Origin: Flavobacteriaceae bacterium
Lineage (GTDB): Bacteria > Bacteroidota > Bacteroidia > Flavobacteriales > Flavobacteriaceae
Assembly: GCA_027066745.1 (NCBI GenBank)
Contig: JAMONB010000212.1
Span: 1 to 38,099, forward strand
Direction of reading: 5' to 3'
Length of the DNA stretch: 38,099 nucleotides
Shown: one piece after another, positions 19,840 through 27,714 of the stretch
Numbering within the stretch: the first letter of the stretch is position 1
How the letters are laid out: each line of letters opens with the position of its first letter
The notes under the pieces: model-generated
Seen by the model: the letters and a program-made list of their open reading frames with translations, nothing else
What the model was told of the DNA's origin: nothing
Databases searched by the model: none
Translations under genes and position numbers: made by a program

Positions 19840-20865
19840 TTAATCGCTATATTCTTTAACCGCATCAATAAATGCTTTAGCATTATCTAGCGGTATATTG
19901 GGTAAAATACCATGCCCCAAGTTAACAATATATTTGTCTTTCCCAAAATCATTAATCATTTGATGTACCATTTTTTTTATAGTAGCAGGTGGTGACAACA
20001 ATCTTGAAGGGTCAAAATTACCTTGTAAAGTCATATTACCTCCAGTTAAATAACGTGCATTTTGGGGAGTAATTGTCCAATCTACACCTAAAGCTGAAGC
20101 ATTTGATTTAGCCATTTCTTCTAATGCAAACCAACATCCTTTACCAAAAGAAATAATTGGAGCATCATCTTTTAAAGCTTCTATAATCTGATTGATGTAT
20201 TGCCAAGAAAATTCTTGATAATCTACAGGCGAAAGCATGCCTCCCCAAGAGTCAAAAATTTGTACAGCATCTACTCCTGCTTTTACTTTTGCTTTTAAAT
20301 AAGCAATGGTTGTATCGGTTAGTTTTTGCAATAACTGATGTGCTGCCACAGGGTTGGTAAAACAAAATTCTTTTGCTTTGTCAAAATTTTTGGAGCCCTG
20401 CCCTTGTACTGCATAACAAAAAACTGTCCATGGAGAACCTGCAAAACCAATCAAAGGCACTTCATTATTCAACTTTTCTTTTGTGGCTTTGATAGCTTGC
20501 ATTACATAATCAAGTTCAACATTCACATCTGGAACAATCACAGTATCTACACCTTTCTGGTCTCGTATCGGATTTGGCAAATACGGTCCAAAATTAGGTT
20601 TCATTTCTACTTCGATATTCATAGCTTGTGGAATCACCAAAATGTCAGAAAATAAAATAGCGGCATCCATCCCAAATCTTCTAATGGGTTGCACCGTAAT
20701 TTCTGATGCCAATTCAGGGGTACGACAACGTGTAAAAAAATCATATTTCTCACGTATTTTGATAAATTCAGGCAAAAATCGTCCAGCTTGACGCATCATC
20801 CATACTGGTGGTCTTTCTACTGTTTCGCCTTTTAAGGCTCTTAAAAATAAATCGTTTTTTATCAT
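19840..20865 (-). CDS. hemE: Uroporphyrinogen III decarboxylase
   Basis: A 341-residue enzyme that decarboxylates the four acetate side chains of uroporphyrinogen III to give coproporphyrinogen III in the cytoplasm. The N-terminal signature [17 protein letters not shown] (residues about 18-34) with Arg25 and Arg29 is diagnostic, and [16 protein letters not shown] and the C-terminal [15 protein letters not shown] are also typical. Length fits the family. It follows hemL by 9 bases and abuts the DUF6973-type gene. This product would next need coproporphyrinogen oxidase, which is not encoded in the window. Confidence 0.97.
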
Positions 20866-20874
20866 TTTTTTATT

Positions 20875-22164
20875 TTACATTTTTGATACAGCCTCCATTG
20901 CTTTATCAATTGCTTTTGCTGTTTTTTTAAGGTCTTTATCACTTAAAGCGGATGCTAAAAACCATGCTTCAAATTGTGATGGCGGTAAAAAGATACCATT
21001 ATGAATCATTTCCCAAAAGAATACTGCAAATTTTTTGGTATCTGATTCTTGGGCTTCTTTGAAATTCGTCACTTTGCCAGTAGTAAAAAACGGATTTATC
21101 ATAGAACCAAATCGATTTACAATAACATCAACCCTATGTTTTTTTGCAGAATCTAATAAAATTGTTTCCAATTTTTCTGCCGTTTCATTAAATTGCTTGT
21201 ATGGATTCTGTTTTTTTAATTCCGTTAAGGTCGCTATTCCTGCTGCCATAGCAATCGGATTACCAGAGAGTGTTCCTGCCTGATACATCTCACCTAAAGG
21301 CGAAACCATTTCCATAATTTCATTGCGTGCACCATAGGCTCCCACAGGAAAACCTCCGCCAATAACTTTTCCTAAACAAATAATATCTGCTTCCACACCC
21401 AATAGCTCTTGTGCTCCACCAAATTTTGACCGAAAACCTGTCATTACCTCATCAACAATCAACAACGCTCCTTTAGAAGTTATATATTCTTTTAAGTCTT
21501 TTAAAAAATTCTCTTGAGGTAATACCACACCCATATTTCCTGCTATAGGCTCAATAATAACGCCTGCGATATCATCGTATTTTTCAAAATGTGCTTTTAC
21601 ACTATCCAAATCATTATAATTGGCTATCAATGTATTTTTAACTGCACCTTCAGGCACACCTTTACTACCAGGTAAACTCAACGTTGCCAAACCAGAACCT
21701 GCAGCTACCAATAAGGCATCTGAATGCCCATGATAACAACCTGAAAATTTGATGATTTTATCCTTATTTGTAAAAGCTCTTGCCAATCGGATGGCACTCA
21801 ATACCGCTTCGGTACCAGAATTTACAAAACGGACTTTATCCATCGATGGAAAAGCATCACAGACTATTTTTGCAAGCTTAATTTCATTTTTAGTAGAAGC
21901 TCCAAATGTATAGCCATTTTTCAAGGCTTTATTAATGGCTTTCTGTACTTTTTTATGACGATGCCCTAAAATCATAGGTCCATAAGACAATACATAATCT
22001 ACATACGTATTCCCATCAACATCGGTAATTTTACTACCCTTTGCCTTCTTAATAAATAAAGGATTCCCTCCTACCGAAGCAAAAGCTCTTACAGGTGAAT
22101 TTACCGCACCAACTAAATGTTTAAGTCCTTTTTTATAGAGTTTTTCTGAATTTTCAAATTTCAT
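20875..22164 (-). CDS. hemL: Glutamate-1-semialdehyde 2,1-aminomutase
   Basis: A 429-residue PLP enzyme of aminotransferase class III that converts glutamate-1-semialdehyde to 5-aminolevulinate, the second step of the C5 route. GAVNSPVRAF is the N-terminal signature, VRFVNSGTEAVLSAIRLAR binds PLP phosphate, LLIVDEVMTGFR holds the aspartate, and DIICLGKVIGGGFPVGAYG contains the Schiff-base Lys266. YQAGTLSGNPIAMAAG is typical of the family. Length matches. It lies 29 bases after the unknown exported protein gene and 9 before hemE. Confidence 0.97.
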   Translation of the reverse strand: MKFENSEKLYKKGLKHLVGAVNSPVRAFASVGGNPLFIKKAKGSKITDVDGNTYVDYVLSYGPMILGHRHKKVQKAINKALKNGYTFGASTKNEIKLAKIVCDAFPSMDKVRFVNSGTEAVLSAIRLARAFTNKDKIIKFSGCYHGHSDALLVAAGSGLATLSLPGSKGVPEGAVKNTLIANYNDLDSVKAHFEKYDDIAGVIIEPIAGNMGVVLPQENFLKDLKEYITSKGALLIVDEVMTGFRSKFGGAQELLGVEADIICLGKVIGGGFPVGAYGARNEIMEMVSPLGEMYQAGTLSGNPIAMAAGIATLTELKKQNPYKQFNETAEKLETILLDSAKKHRVDVIVNRFGSMINPFFTTGKVTNFKEAQESDTKKFAVFFWEMIHNGIFLPPSQFEAWFLASALSDKDLKKTAKAIDKAMEAVSKM

Positions 22165-22193: not shown

Positions 22194-22730
22194 TTATTCT
22201 TGAACAATATAATGTCCTTTATTTGGATGCTCTCCACTACAATCTCCTGTCAGGATACGATTATCTTCTATCCATATTAATTTCTTATTATTCTTTCCAT
22301 ACCACTTAGACAATGCTTTTTGAAATTTATTTCTATGTGCTACGCTTGATCTTAAATGAAAGTAATAAGAACAATATCCACATCCTTCTCTATCAAATTC
22401 TACATCTAATAAATCAAAAGTTGGTATTCCCTTAATTATTTCAGAGATAGCAACATAAGCAGCATCACCAACGGTATATTTACCTCCAAAATTAGGAACA
22501 TAAACGTTAACTTTAGTCGTATCATTCACCTTCTCAATTAATAATGGAACAATCTCTAATTTCTTTTTAACTAATTTCCAAAAAATAACATCTCCACATC
22601 CCAACTCTCCATATTTACCTATATATGGTAAATCAGCAATATTTTTCATATTTTCAACAAGGTCTTTATTCGTTTCTTGACCATGTGTAAATATTGGTAA
22701 TATCAATAAAAAAATTATCAAGTACTTCAT
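22194..22730 (-). CDS. Unknown exported protein inside the haem operon
   Basis: A 178-residue protein I do not recognise. Residues 1-18 form a signal peptide ([18 protein letters not shown]). The mature part has [17 protein letters not shown], a [19 protein letters not shown] stretch, the cysteine pair in [15 protein letters not shown], and a last Cys in [15 protein letters not shown]. The Cys residues could form disulfides in the periplasm, or bind a ligand. The ATG overlaps the hemB stop by 4 bases (ATGA), so it is very likely translated with hemB. Whether it acts in haem metabolism is unknown. Confidence 0.65.
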
Positions 22731-23683
22731 AATATTTTAGCCACCTCCTTAGCAAAATAAGTAATAATAATATCTGCTCCTGCTCTTTTCATTGAGAGTA
22801 AACTTTCTAGCATTACTTTTTCACCATCTATCCATCCTTTTTCTGCCGCTGCTTTTATCATGGCATATTCTCCACTTACATTATAACAGGCGATAGGTCT
22901 GTCAAAATTATTTTTTAAATCTCTAATAATATCCAAATAAGACAAGGCTGGTTTTACCATTAAAATATCAGCACCTTCAGCATCATCAAAAGTGGCTTTT
23001 CTCATGGCTTCATCTCTATTAGCTGCATCCATTTGATAGGTACGCCTATCACCAAAGCTTGGTGCTGAGTCAGCAGCATCTCTAAACGGCCCATAATATG
23101 CCGAAGCATACTTGACAGAATATGCCATAATTGGGATATCAGAAAACCCAGAATTATCTAAAGCTTCTCGTACCATCGCTACGGTACCGTCCATCATTCC
23201 AGATGGAGCAATCATATCGGCACCTGCTTTGACATGCGAAATAGATTGCTTTGCAATGTTGACTAAAGTAGCATCATTATCTACATCATTATCATGTATA
23301 ATTCCGCAATGCCCATGTGAGGTGTATTCACAAAAACAGACATCTGTTATTACATAAAGGCCTGGATAATTTTTCTTAATAAAACGGATGGCTTGTTGGA
23401 TAATTCCATTATCATTCCAAGTTTCTGTTCCCTCATCATCCTTTTTTGAAGGAATTCCAAAAAGCAATACCGCAGGAATTTTTAGAGACACAACTTCATC
23501 TAATTCTTTAGAAATTTTGTCTAAAGAAAATCGTTTTATGCCTGGCATGGAAATAATTTCAGTTTCTATGCCTGTTCCTTCTTCAATAAATAAAGGATAA
23601 ATTAAATCGTCTACAGATAATTTAGTTTCTCGAACCAACCGTCTAATATTTTCTGTTTTTCTTAATCTTCTTGTTCTGAACAT
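22727..23683 (-). CDS. hemB: 5-Aminolevulinate dehydratase (porphobilinogen synthase)
   Basis: A 318-residue enzyme that condenses two 5-aminolevulinate molecules to porphobilinogen. The catalytic lysines are Lys191 in [14 protein letters not shown] and Lys244 in [13 protein letters not shown] zinc-type site is present with Cys116, Cys118 and Cys126 in [14 protein letters not shown], so it should be the zinc form rather than the Mg-only form. The arginine-rich start [20 protein letters not shown] is typical. The upstream gap to hemC-hemD is 109 bases, larger than elsewhere in the operon, so an internal promoter or processing site is possible. The 3' end overlaps the unknown exported protein gene. 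Confidence 0.97.
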
Positions 23684-23792: not shown

Positions 23793-25376
23793 TTATAGTT
23801 TTGCGAAGTGTAAGTTTGCCAAATCTATTACACTTTCTACTGTTGGTACTTTTGCTATTTGCACCTGCTCAAAATACTTTTGTGCTACTTTGGCAGTAGT
23901 GTCACCAATACAAAAGGCTATACCTTTAGGTTCATTTTCTAACCTATAGCTTTCTACAGTAGATGGGCTATAGAACATGACACCATCAGTATTCTTACTA
24001 ACACTTTTTGGGCTTAACATTGTCTTATAAGCCTCAACTTCATTTACTGTGATTTCGTTTTTTTCTAAAATGACAGGCAAATCGTCTAAACGTAAGCTGC
24101 TTGTAAAATAAGTAATTTCTTGCCCTTTAATTTCTTCTGCCAAATGGTTTGCCAATAATTTTGCATTTCTTGCAACAAATTTAACCTCACCAATTTTCTT
24201 TTCTATTAATGCTTTGGTACGTCTACCAACACAATAAATATTTTTAAATTGTAATTCAGCTAAGGAAAAATTTGTCTCTAAAGATTCAACCGTATTTTTA
24301 CTAGTAATGATTACATTTTCAATTTCCTTTTTCAACAAAGGTTGCGGTATTCTGCAAAATCGTATTTTTACAAAATCACTTTCTTCAATAGCAATATCTT
24401 CATGAACTAATTTTGACTGTGCATCAGTAAATTTTTTGGTAGAATACACTTTGAATTTCTTTTCAAAAGCTCCGTAGTTTGATATTAATTTTTGACCACC
24501 TCTATCTATAATAATATCAGCAGCATCTTGTGCTAAATAAATATGTTTTCTGAGTTTAACCGTTTTGTTGACTTCTTTTTTACGAGTACCATCTTCACTT
24601 AATATAATTCCTTTTAATGTAATTTCTTCATCTTGATTTATATAGGATAAAGCCCCGATAGGTGAAGAACAACCACCTTCTAATAGGCGTAAAAATTTAC
24701 GTTCTACTGAAGTACAAATTTCTGTTTCTTCATGATTTAATTTTGCACATACTTCCTTGCAATATTCATCATCTTCAAGGGCTGTAATCATGATTGCACC
24801 TTGACCAGGTGCAGAGATCATCCAACTTAATGTAAGCATATTTTCAGGTTTAACACCAATACGTTTTAACCCTGCCGCTGCGAAAATAGCTCCATTCCAT
24901 TCATTATTTTTCAACTTTTCAAGTCGTGTATTGACATTACCTCGTAAGCCAACTACTTTATGAGACGGATAACGGTGTAACCATTGTGCCTTACGTCTTA
25001 AGCTACCTGTTGCTATAATTGCATCTTTTTGAGCTAAAAACTCTTCATTATCTTTAAAAACAAGTACATCTTCAGATGGACCTCGTTTTAAAACAGCAGC
25101 TTGAACAATACCTTCTGGTAAAACTGTAGGAACATCTTTCAAGGAATGGACAGCGATATCAATATCATTATTAAGCATAGAAATGTCTAAATTTCTAGTA
25201 AAAACACCTGTAATACCTAATTTGTAAATGGGCTTGTTTAACACCAAATCTCCTGTAGCTTTGATAGGTACTAATTTGGTTTTATAGCCTAAATATTCTA
25301 ATTGCTCTTGTACAGTTTTTGCTTGCCACATGGCCAACTCACTATCGCGAGTGCCAATTCTAATCGTTTTATCCAT
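23793..25376 (-). CDS. hemC: HemC-HemD fusion: hydroxymethylbilane synthase and uroporphyrinogen III synthase
   Basis: A 527-residue bifunctional protein. Residues 1 to about 300 are hydroxymethylbilane synthase: IRIGTRDSELAMWQAK at the N-terminus, DIAVHSLKDVP with catalytic Asp81, TGSLRRKAQ, and FLRLLEGGCSSPIGA with Cys236, the dipyrromethane attachment site. Residues about 310-527 match uroporphyrinogen III synthase (NVIITSKNTVESLE, YCVGRRTKALIEKK and DGVMFYSPSTVESYRL). It would make linear hydroxymethylbilane and close it to uroporphyrinogen III in one chain. The separate hemD function is the C-terminal part. The start is 3 bases downstream of hemA. A fusion of this order is known in some bacteria. 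Confidence 0.95.
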   Translation of the reverse strand: MDKTIRIGTRDSELAMWQAKTVQEQLEYLGYKTKLVPIKATGDLVLNKPIYKLGITGVFTRNLDISMLNNDIDIAVHSLKDVPTVLPEGIVQAAVLKRGPSEDVLVFKDNEEFLAQKDAIIATGSLRRKAQWLHRYPSHKVVGLRGNVNTRLEKLKNNEWNGAIFAAAGLKRIGVKPENMLTLSWMISAPGQGAIMITALEDDEYCKEVCAKLNHEETEICTSVERKFLRLLEGGCSSPIGALSYINQDEEITLKGIILSEDGTRKKEVNKTVKLRKHIYLAQDAADIIIDRGGQKLISNYGAFEKKFKVYSTKKFTDAQSKLVHEDIAIEESDFVKIRFCRIPQPLLKKEIENVIITSKNTVESLETNFSLAELQFKNIYCVGRRTKALIEKKIGEVKFVARNAKLLANHLAEEIKGQEITYFTSSLRLDDLPVILEKNEITVNEVEAYKTMLSPKSVSKNTDGVMFYSPSTVESYRLENEPKGIAFCIGDTTAKVAQKYFEQVQIAKVPTVESVIDLANLHFAKL

Positions 25377-25379
25377 TCT

Positions 25380-26627
25380 TTAATTTTCTAGCTGAAAAAC
25401 CTTAGAAATTAACGCCATACTTTCTTCAGATGAAGTATTATTTTCTTTTAAATGATTGGCAAACTGCTTAGTGATTTTCTGAACTATTCTATCAGAAAGC
25501 AATACTGCTTGCTCTTCATTAAAATCAGATATTTGCTTACGCTGATAATCTATTTCTTCTGACTGTATTTTTTCTAATTTTTGTTTTAAAGCTTTTATTG
25601 TAGGGGCAAATTTACGAGTTTCTAACCAAGCAATAAATTTTTCTTTATTCTCTTTAATAATTGCTTCTGCCAAAGGAATTTGCGATTCTCTTCGCTCTAG
25701 TGTATTGTCAGTAATTTTTGAAAGATCATCTAAATGCACCAAATTAACATTTGGTAATTCTAAAACATTACTAGCTACATTTTTAGGTATAGACAAGTCT
25801 AAAATTAATAATTCTTTTTCAGTATTGATGGTGCTTTTTGTTATTGTAGGCAACAAAGACCCTGTAGCTACAATTAAGATATCTGCATTACTAATTTCAG
25901 TTTGCAGGTTGGCATAATCTGCAACAGTCACATCAAGCTTATCTGCAACTTTCTCTGCTTTATCTTTTGTTCTATTTATTAGCGTGATTTTTTTGTTTTT
26001 CGTGTGCTTTACTAAATTATCACAGGTGTTTCTTCCTATTTTCCCTGTACCAAATAATAAAATATTCTTATCAGAAATTTGTTTTACTTCCTTAAGCATA
26101 TATTGTACAGAAGCAAAAGATACAGATGTTGCACCAGAACTTATTTCAGTTTCTGTCTTTACTAACTTACTCGCTCTAATAACACAATTCACCAACCTCC
26201 CCAAATAAGTGTTCAGCAGATTAAATTTCTTAGACAATGCTGCACTATTCTTTATTTGACCAATAATTTCAAAATCACCTAGAATTTGACTTTCTAAACC
26301 TGTACCCACACGAAACATATGATCTATTGCATCATTATTTTTATAAACATATGCCACTTTTTCAAATTCTTCAACAGTACCATTTGAATGTTGACATAAC
26401 AATTTTATCAATTGAAATGGATGCTGAGCAAAACCATAAATTTCAGTTCTATTACAAGTAGAAATCGCTAAAACCCCTTCTAAACCACTTGAAGAAGCAT
26501 CTTTTAATAGGTTTTCTTTTGAAGTAGCATCTAAACTAAAAAAACCTCTGACTTCTGCATTTGCTTTTTCATAGCTTAAGCCAATACAATAGAAAGAATG
26601 ATGCATAGAAATTTGATTTTGCTTCAT
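25380..26627 (-). CDS. hemA: Glutamyl-tRNA reductase
   Basis: A 415-residue enzyme that reduces glutamyl-tRNA(Glu) with NADPH to glutamate-1-semialdehyde, the committed step of C5 haem synthesis. STCNRTEIY holds the nucleophile Cys58, GLESQILGDFEIIGQIK (110-126) is the substrate loop, and GTGKIGRN (193-200) is the NADP-binding turn. A C-terminal helical dimerisation part follows. A second in-frame Met at residue 8 (MHHSFYCIGLSY) could be the real start. It is the first gene of the haem operon; the promoter candidate lies 19-51 bases upstream and the AraC-family gene is divergent. Confidence 0.96.
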   Translation of the reverse strand: MKQNQISMHHSFYCIGLSYEKANAEVRGFFSLDATSKENLLKDASSSGLEGVLAISTCNRTEIYGFAQHPFQLIKLLCQHSNGTVEEFEKVAYVYKNNDAIDHMFRVGTGLESQILGDFEIIGQIKNSAALSKKFNLLNTYLGRLVNCVIRASKLVKTETEISSGATSVSFASVQYMLKEVKQISDKNILLFGTGKIGRNTCDNLVKHTKNKKITLINRTKDKAEKVADKLDVTVADYANLQTEISNADILIVATGSLLPTITKSTINTEKELLILDLSIPKNVASNVLELPNVNLVHLDDLSKITDNTLERRESQIPLAEAIIKENKEKFIAWLETRKFAPTIKALKQKLEKIQSEEIDYQRKQISDFNEEQAVLLSDRIVQKITKQFANHLKENNTSSEESMALISKVFQLEN

Positions 26628-26645
26628 AAGAATTTATAATCAACG

Positions 26646-26678
26646 CAAAAATATCATTACTCAGCATAAAAAAACAAC
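26646..26678 (-). promoter_or_regulatory. Candidate promoter of hemA
   Basis: On the minus strand the -7 element is TATTTTTG (26646-26653), an exact TAnnTTTG match. A -33 element GTTG (26675-26678) lies 21 bases further up. The -7 ends 19 bases before the hemA ATG at 26627, giving a short leader. This is the best-spaced promoter pair I see in the window. Confidence 0.6.
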
Positions 26679-26721
26679 GCTAAAAGAGTTATTTATGTCG
26701 CTTTAGGTTTTTTAACTGTTT

Positions 26722-26755
26722 TTTGACATTAAACCCACTGTAAAGCTTATATTTG
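26722..26755 (+). promoter_or_regulatory. Candidate promoter of the AraC-family regulator
   Basis: The -7 element TATATTTG (26748-26755) matches TAnnTTTG exactly, and a TTTG (26722-26725) lies 22 bases upstream. The leader to the ATG at 26818 would be about 60 bases. It faces away from the hemA promoter, and the two -33 sites are about 44 bases apart, close enough for one bound protein to affect both. Confidence 0.55.
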
Positions 26756-26817
26756 CTGACGTTAAAAAACCTTGTATTTTCAAACGACTTAGAGTAGTTT
26801 TAAATAAAGTAATAATT

Positions 26818-27714
26818 ATGACCGAATTTGACATTAAAAATAACGATAAAAGTTCTGTTGAAAAAAAAGAAATTGAAAAAGGCATTTTTATTCTCAAATT
26901 TCAAAACAACAGCACTAAGACTCAAACCTTTCAACATCAAATAAATAGTAGTTATATACAATTTCATTATTGCTTAAAAGGTGCTTCAAAATTTTATTTT
27001 AACAATGGAAAATATGCTTTTGATATAAATAATGAATTTTCTTTACTCTTATACAATCCGCAGACTGATTTACCTTTACATTTAGAATTACAAAAAAAAT
27101 CTTGGGTGGTTTCTGTATTGATTTCTATTAAAACATTCCATTCTTTATTTTCTAACGAATCTGATTATATCCACTTTTTAAACGATGACAATAAGGATAA
27201 AAAATACTATGACACTAAGCCTATATCGCCTTCTAAAATTGTAATTTTGAATCAGATGATGAATTACAATCTACATCCGTCAGTTGAAAATTTATATTTA
27301 AAAGCCAAAACTTACGAATTATTAAGTCTTTATTTTAACAAAAGTGAGGATGCTGACATTGAACAGTGTCCGTTCTTAGTTGATGAGCAAAATGTACTAA
27401 AAATCAGAAAAGCAAAAGATATTATTATTTCAAACATTACAGAGCCTCCTAGCTTACAAGAATTAGCCAATCAAATAGGTCTCAATTTAAAGAAATTAAA
27501 AGATGGCTTTAAACAAATTTATGGAGATTCTGTTTATAGCTTTTTATTTGATTATAAAATGGAAGTCTCTCGCAAACTATTAGAAACGAAACAATACAAT
27601 GTAAATGAAGTTGGCTTAAAAGTTGGCTATAGCACTTCTAGTCATTTTATAGCTGCATTCAAAAAAAAATATGGGACTACTCCAAAAAAGTATATTAGTG
27701 CTTTACCTAGTTAA
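26818..27714 (+). CDS. AraC-family transcriptional regulator, divergent from hemA
   Basis: A 298-residue regulator. The C-terminal ~100 residues carry the two helix-turn-helix motifs of AraC/XylS proteins: PSLQELANQIGLNLKKLKDG and later YNVNEVGLKVGYSTSSHF with FKKKYGTTPKKYI at the end. The N-terminal ~180 residues form a sensor region with FHYCLKGASKFYFNNGKY that looks like a cupin-type strand pattern, but no ligand motif is obvious. It is divergent from hemA across 190 bases with promoter elements for both genes, so it may control the haem operon or iron-linked genes. No regulated ligand can be read from sequence. Confidence 0.88.
   Translation: MTEFDIKNNDKSSVEKKEIEKGIFILKFQNNSTKTQTFQHQINSSYIQFHYCLKGASKFYFNNGKYAFDINNEFSLLLYNPQTDLPLHLELQKKSWVVSVLISIKTFHSLFSNESDYIHFLNDDNKDKKYYDTKPISPSKIVILNQMMNYNLHPSVENLYLKAKTYELLSLYFNKSEDADIEQCPFLVDEQNVLKIRKAKDIIISNITEPPSLQELANQIGLNLKKLKDGFKQIYGDSVYSFLFDYKMEVSRKLLETKQYNVNEVGLKVGYSTSSHFIAAFKKKYGTTPKKYISALPS

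Follow-up and report, generated by a model that had tools for sequence, protein, structure and literature searches.

Introduction

Activators of the AraC/XylS family such as AraC, ToxT and Rns combine a strand-rich N-terminal domain with an AraC-type helix-turn-helix (HTH) domain and use a direct-repeat site near -33/-35; the regulator that we describe here has the same domains and a putative site of the same kind. AraC-type dimers use direct repeats, about two helical turns apart, beside the -33/-35 region. In contrast to AraC, ToxT and Rns, however, our regulator has an invariant Cys-Pro in its linker, genes of haem synthesis or import as partners, and no known ligand.

Haem-linked DNA-binding regulators of the Fur family, namely Irr of rhizobia and Har of P. 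gingivalis, likewise carry a Cys-Pro with a hydrophobic residue after it. This combination is the haem regulatory motif as defined in the relevant passages of PMC4222909 and PMC11442138. Har has the motif 97-CPL-99, and its C97A variant binds hemin four-fold more weakly (relevant passage of PMC4222909). Irr and Har are nevertheless of another fold and family, and the Cys-Pro of our regulator lies in an interdomain linker. Dedicated control of haem homeostasis has also been described for HrrSA/ChrSA of Corynebacterium, where it includes the hemA promoter (titles in the reference list of PMC12670364), and, among the matches listed, for HemKR of Leptospira; these are two-component systems, whereas the regulator described here is a one-component AraC protein. 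In F. psychrophilum, the haem receptor HfpR is paired with HfpY, which we take to be HmuY-like. The receptor gene and its hfpY partner are regulated, but this control is iron-dependent and suggested to be of the Fur type in the parts of PMC9331221 covered, the main text of which does not contain the term 'AraC'.

Among the open-access matches listed, covered as titles and beginnings of abstracts and leaving subscription papers mostly outside, none described a regulator of the AraC type for hemA or for HmuY uptake in Bacteroidota. The open-access matches listed, as far as their text was covered, also held no description of the control of haem synthesis in Bacteroidota, and the main text of two reviews of bacterial haem, PMC11442138 and PMC12670364, is without 'AraC'. 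AraC regulators are known, and regulators with a haem motif are known in other folds. We know of no case in which the AraC fold is combined with a haem motif.

Results

The haem gene cluster and its divergent neighbour

The window, by which we mean the whole stretch of 38,099 nucleotides that was analysed (contig JAMONB010000212.1 of the Flavobacteriaceae assembly GCA_027066745.1), contains a minus-strand cluster of haem genes recognised by Pfam and NCBIfam models, and a gene for an AraC-family regulator that points away from it:

19840-20865, minus strand: hemE, uroporphyrinogen decarboxylase (TIGR01464, over cut-off)
20875-22164, minus strand: hemL, glutamate-1-semialdehyde aminomutase (TIGR00713, over cut-off)
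22727-23683, minus strand: hemB, porphobilinogen synthase (PF00490, 506 bits)
23793-25376, minus strand: hemC-hemD fusion, one ORF of 527 aa (Porphobil_deam 225 bits and HEM4 88 bits in the same ORF)
25380-26627, minus strand: hemA, glutamyl-tRNA reductase, first gene of the putative haem operon (TIGR01035, 273.8 bits, over cut-off)
26818-27714, plus strand: AraC-family regulator, 298 aa (HTH_18, PF12833, 61.6 bits; HTH_AraC, PF00165, 35.1 bits; both over cut-offs)

The divergent arrangement of hemA and the AraC-family gene, first put forward in a sequence-only reading of the window, is confirmed, with 190 bases separating the start codons. Between hemB and hemL there is also an ORF of 178 aa (22194-22730) that matched no Pfam or NCBIfam model.

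The pair is widely kept. Searching 299 family genomes gave an orthologue of the regulator in 284 (E<=1e-25); within the genus, 15 of 17 genomes have one at >300 bits, and the next-best AraC proteins there scored <90. Its named hosts among the best 80 matches are Aquimarina, Kordia, Galbibacter, Salegentibacter, Cellulophaga and other Flavobacteriaceae. Wherever a fetched locus held the two genes, with araC at 45% identity or more, araC and hemA are divergent (121 of 121), although these loci are not independent, since near relatives are included and some genomes occur twice. The spacer measures 183-218 bp in 116 of the 121 loci and 190-202 bp in 102; the five outlying lengths are 173, 271, 292, 368 and 368 bp.

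Promoter-like elements and a conserved block in the spacer

The following elements can be placed in the spacer:

26646-26653, minus strand: hemA -7 box, TATTTTTG, its plus-strand start 29 bp from the repeat start
26671-26700, plus strand: putative operator, direct repeat CAACG (26675-26679) and TGTCG (26696-26700), 21 bp apart, conserved across 112 spacers
26748-26755, plus strand: araC -7 box, TATATTTG, 73 bp from the repeat start

As the sequence-only reading had it, each gene has an exact TAnnTTTG; the spacer contains one on each strand, each facing its own gene. By themselves these elements are weak evidence, since their density gives an expectation of about 0.4 per 190 bp on both strands; the window holds 81, compared with a shuffle mean of 71.3. 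What lifts them above chance is the conservation of the -7 boxes across relatives: all of 112 unique spacers, taken from the 116 of normal length, keep the CAAA and TA of the hemA box (100%), and conservation of TA and TTT in the araC box is 98-100%.

The two -33 sites were said to lie about 44 bases apart, which is right within a base: 45 separate the TTG at 26675-26677 (minus strand) from that at 26723-26725 (plus strand). The TTG of the hemA -33 site is present in the window but not conserved among relatives. The minus-strand TTG derives from CAACG, and it is missing in most relatives because it needs C as the first base of the repeat; upstream regions, not deduplicated, carry CAACG in 42 of 156 cases, TAACG in 98 and TATCG in 16. 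The conserved feature in the hemA -33 region is an operator-like block and not a -33 box.

Aligning the spacer across relatives, the check proposed in the sequence-only reading, brought out this block, AAAAAAtAACGCTnnAAGaAcTTTtAgTaTCG, as the conserved non-promoter stretch between the two -7 boxes. Its consensus is a direct repeat of TAACG/TATCG with 21-bp spacing, so that by its letters the putative operator is a direct repeat beside a target promoter, like those of the AraC/XylS family. The -7 box is placed at -12 to -5 in the section of PMC9723704 that deals with it. On that numbering the block overlaps the hemA -33 region at about -34 to -59. The predicted transcript starts are at about 26641 for hemA and 26760 for araC. 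A site at about -34 to -59 is in the position of a class-II activator, and the putative operator fits this position relative to hemA.

The spacing between site and promoter is close to rigid. The target -7 box lies 29 bp from the site in 129 of 131 distinct surroundings and 30 bp in one (L181); in the other one, genome G122, no -7 box was recognised near the site. This rigidity bears on the possibility that the regulator is instead a repressor of hemA or hmuRY, sitting on the -33 region and using haem as its co-repressor. The site does overlap the -33 region, and a protein bound to it could obstruct RNA polymerase, but repressor sites need no fixed phase, and the loss of the -33 TTG from most relatives fits dependence on an activator. 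We consider repression improbable.

The layout had also been taken to suggest that the regulator controls both hemA and itself. Control of hemA is supported, as a sequence-based hypothesis, by the layout, the spacer length and the block, all of which are kept, and by the constant distance that separates the block from the hemA -7 box. The outcome named in the sequence-only reading as a refutation, a spacer that relatives do not keep, was thus looked for and did not occur. Self-control is the weaker half of the suggestion: one conserved site could serve both genes, but it mostly lies 73-75 bp from the araC -7 box. In genomes G143 and G249, which are without hemA, the site is still upstream of araC, and no divergent ORF of at least 90 aa was seen there.

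Occurrence of the site in genomes

A first site pattern, TAWCG-N16-TRWCG, was rejected as it missed 59 of 167 upstream regions, many of them with C first, and was widened to Y. The widened pattern had no match in 14 of 168 upstream regions. These came from seven genomes: one locus stops at a contig edge (G024), and the other six keep a degenerate block in place, as judged by eye, one of them matching a looser rule.

The exact IUPAC pattern gave 111 matches in 102 of 149 family genomes, against 11 for a reversed-pattern control; the 3.44-Mb assembly of the window itself has a single exact match (control 0). Positions of araC were listed for 89 genomes, which hold 83 of the matches, the other 28 falling in genomes without a listed position. 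Of those 83, 75 lie <500 bp upstream of araC on the same strand and 8 elsewhere; counted by genome, 75 of the 89 have the exact pattern upstream of araC and 14 are without the exact form. The operator-like site thus chiefly marks one locus and is near-unique per genome, and we do not take the 8 outlying matches as a wider regulon, since the reversed control occurs at a similar rate, with 11 matches in 149 genomes. Twelve regions with outlying matches or no listed araC were fetched. One lies at haem uptake genes (G031), one upstream of hemA (G137), one within the start of araC (G150) and one downstream of araC (G027); the ORFs of the remaining eight gave no haem link.

Two other features of the window were noted. 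A perfect 12-bp inverted repeat, AGGTTTTTTAAC/GTTAAAAAACCT (26705-26716 and 26761-26772), was rejected as a family operator, its right arm falling in poorly conserved columns. A half-operator-like sequence, AAAATAACGATAAAAG, occurs at 26837-26866 inside the first codons of araC, with three mismatches to the full pattern, which is at chance level.

The leader of araC contains one further element:

26785-26807, plus strand: degenerate, imperfect copy of a palindrome present in many relatives, TTTAGA-N5-TCTAAATA

Of the 30 loci of relatives that were read (L252-L281), 14 have the palindrome in the araC leader. From N-terminal reading only, the other 16 lie at apparent genes for cytochrome c (five), Fe-S assembly (HesB/SufB, Mrp; three), an iron-transport-like binding protein (one) and a hemA-like protein (one), with no assignment for six. 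The palindrome is possibly an iron-regulator box of Flavobacteriaceae, and it may add iron control to araC.

Change of partner between hemA and haem-uptake-type genes

Outside the home family, 55 orthologues turned up, of which 41 come from the order and 14 from the class. Thirty-three of these distant loci, picked to cover genera and drawn from 11 families, were read: 13 have the regulator beside hemA, 12 beside hmuR/hmuY-type genes (TonB receptor, HmuY) and 8 beside neither. In 12 of the 13 distant hemA loci, hemH is on the other side of araC. Within the home family, the regulator is present and hemA absent in five genomes (G010, G024, G122, G143 and G249), of which G010 and G122 have the regulator divergent from a TonB-dependent receptor gene that is followed by one for an HmuY protein. 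All 14 genomes with the hmu arrangement (the 12 distant ones, G010 and G122) are without hemA. PF14064 (HmuY, cut-off 27) was exceeded in all four loci tested (L198 of G010, 36.4 bits; L199 of G122, 39.0; L207 of G031, 56.6; L232, 27.5); the other hmuY loci were assigned by tblastn alone, several distant ones with weak scores of 48-66 bits. The hmuR calls are based on TonB-receptor models and an adjacent HmuY, NCBIfam haem-receptor models scoring below their cut-offs.

The site is upstream of araC in G010, G122, G143 and G249, and the 29-bp distance also holds at hmuR of G010 and G031. G031 is a MAG of 84% completeness that yielded neither hemA nor the regulator; here the site lies between a DUF6607-like gene (identified by eye) and a TonB receptor gene with HmuY. 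DUF6607 genes adjoin HmuR/HmuY-type uptake genes in both G010 (L198 6478-7377, by Pfam) and G031 (L207 875-1777, by eye), and the DUF6607 protein is possibly a partner in haem uptake.

Other hemA-less genomes have the regulator without the uptake arrangement: G143 and G249, where no hmu-type partner was seen beside it, eight of family f7 (two read) and three of family f29. In hemA-less genomes of two other families the orthologue adjoins a gene for a protein of about 55 aa with one hydrophobic stretch (FMFFLxKG-like), at L227 5158-5349 and L229 5070-5294 and in L244, L245 and L251 (f29 cases by eye); the proteins from L227 and L229 matched no Pfam model.

A tree of the regulator gave four changes between hemA and hmu with 74 rows, and five without ten of the rows. 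It is a quick tree with long branches, and its well-supported branches force one or two changes with all rows and three to five without the long ones.

In distant families the letters of the home-family site are replaced by TACC-type half-sites. With a five-letter half-site rule, seven of the 17 target spacers from these families show a 21-bp repeat (shuffled mean 0.39), although one of the seven (L242) falls inside the receptor gene region, away from the place found later. With a looser half-site rule a 21-bp repeat is present in 12 of 17, which is a description and not a blind test, as the rule was written after seeing the sequences; a 23-bp repeat, the second commonest spacing, is present in 7 of 17. 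The combination of a 21-bp repeat and a -7 box at 28-30 bp occurs in 8 of the 17 spacers, and no 23-bp repeat has that geometry.

Genomes that lack the regulator or its neighbour

Among family and genus genomes without an orthologue, 15 of 17 are also without hemA over cut-off, as are 8 of the 10 of good quality; in MAGs, part of this joint absence may reflect missing contigs, which remove both neighbours, and we treat it as supporting only. The two that keep hemA, G039 and G051, match neither the wide nor the loose pattern within 400 bp upstream of hemA. G039, whose congener G267 keeps regulator, hemA and site, is assembled as one contig. No rule of joint absence holds in the wider order, where orthologues were called at >200 bits: of 246 genomes, 64 have both orthologue and hemA, 17 the orthologue alone, 64 hemA alone and 101 neither. 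As 64 of the 128 hemA-positive genomes of the order are without an orthologue, hemA as such does not require the regulator.

In G137 the site (L214 1227-1256) lies 29 bp from the hemA -7 box with hemH, not araC, on its other side. The orthologue is elsewhere in the genome, and araC is not a neighbour on the stretch read; this arrangement would show action in trans.

These exchanges speak to the idea that the pairing is an old genome order with no regulatory link, its spacer kept as two ordinary promoters. Divergent neighbours can persist for a long time, and both -7 boxes are indeed conserved. However, given that relatives conserve a non-promoter block of 30 bp, near-unique in each genome, that the regulator stands beside hmu-type genes in 14 genomes that lack hemA, and that the site occurs upstream of hmuR in G031 and of hemA in G137 with no adjacent araC on the stretch read, we regard mere inheritance of gene order as very hard to credit.

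The regulator protein and its candidate sensor residues

An AlphaFold2 model of the protein (mean pLDDT 82.5) has a strand-rich barrel (residues 13-103), helices at 104-117 and 138-173, a linker at 175-188 predicted with low confidence (pLDDT <50) and an HTH domain (190-294). Foldseek returned ToxT and Rns, of the AraC family, as best matches, with E down to 3e-14 and TM-scores of about 0.3 over two domains. The N-terminal half matched no Pfam model; the protein nevertheless has the two marks of the AraC/XylS family, a C-terminal double helix-turn-helix by Pfam and an N-terminal cupin-like domain by predicted structure. The Fur fold of Fur, Irr and Har was not found, the Pfam matches being to AraC HTH models alone and the best fold matches to the AraC family.

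Two features stand out from a comparison of 173 distinct orthologues, whose identity to the window protein goes down to 19% over residues 5-190:

27139-27141, plus strand: codon of the invariant His108, sensor half (173 of 173)
27367-27372, plus strand: codons of Cys184-Pro185 (EQCPFL), resembling a haem regulatory motif (Cys in 173 of 173, Pro in 172 of 173)

His108 and Cys184 are the sole invariant residues of the sensor half, and the barrel has none. In the AlphaFold2 model His108 is in the first helix after the barrel and Cys184 in the low-confidence linker between sensor and HTH. A hydrophobic residue follows Cys-Pro in 171 of the 173 orthologues, the window protein included, which completes the form of the motif. 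The exceptions, both from hemA-less genomes without an hmu partner, are G249 (L202), where the Pro is lost, and G143 (L201), which has CPN. None of 18 paralogues has a CP in the linker. We note, against haem sensing, that Cys-Pro occurs in non-haem proteins too.

The regulator might control hemA or hmuRY and yet respond to another signal, such as iron status, oxygen or redox through the Cys, or a precursor (ALA) in the cupin-like domain. The fold, a strand-rich N-terminal domain with an HTH, would suit a small-molecule signal, as the N-terminal domain of an AraC protein often binds small molecules. The araC-leader palindrome of relatives is also found near cytochrome and Fe-S genes, and oxygen limitation raises the haem-biosynthesis enzymes of F. 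psychrophilum (relevant part of PMC9723704). On the other hand, what hemA and haem import have in common is haem, not iron or oxygen, and the invariant pair is His108 and the linker Cys, with no invariant residue in the barrel. We think a non-haem signal unlikely, though a more serious contender than repression.

Discussion

Taken together, the evidence leads us to favour, with somewhat better than even confidence, a haem-sensing class-II AraC activator of haem supply; the regulator is thus the probable haem-supply switch of these bacteria.

We propose the following model. An AraC-type dimer would bind the direct repeat with 21-bp spacing beside the hemA -33 region and, when haem is short, would activate hemA in class-II fashion; it would perhaps also adjust its own gene through this repeat. 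Binding of haem, or of a porphyrin-like product, would take place at Cys184-Pro185, His108 possibly serving as a second ligand, and would turn activation off, giving end-product feedback. In several hemA-less lineages the same regulator, with its site where recognisable, would control uptake through the TonB receptor and HmuY. Being turned off by the product is a sensible sign for a biosynthetic gene; for uptake the opposite sign would also be possible.

On a longer timescale, we give about equal weight to either answer on whether this is an ancient haem-sensing AraC regulator of the Bacteroidia, with a Cys-Pro linker, which has been wired to whichever haem route its host uses, regulator and operator having switched routes repeatedly.

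Haem sensing by an AraC protein becomes directly testable with this locus, as it calls for a single protein, a single DNA of 30 bp and a single point mutant. If true, our model would explain how abundant Bacteroidota set their haem supply.
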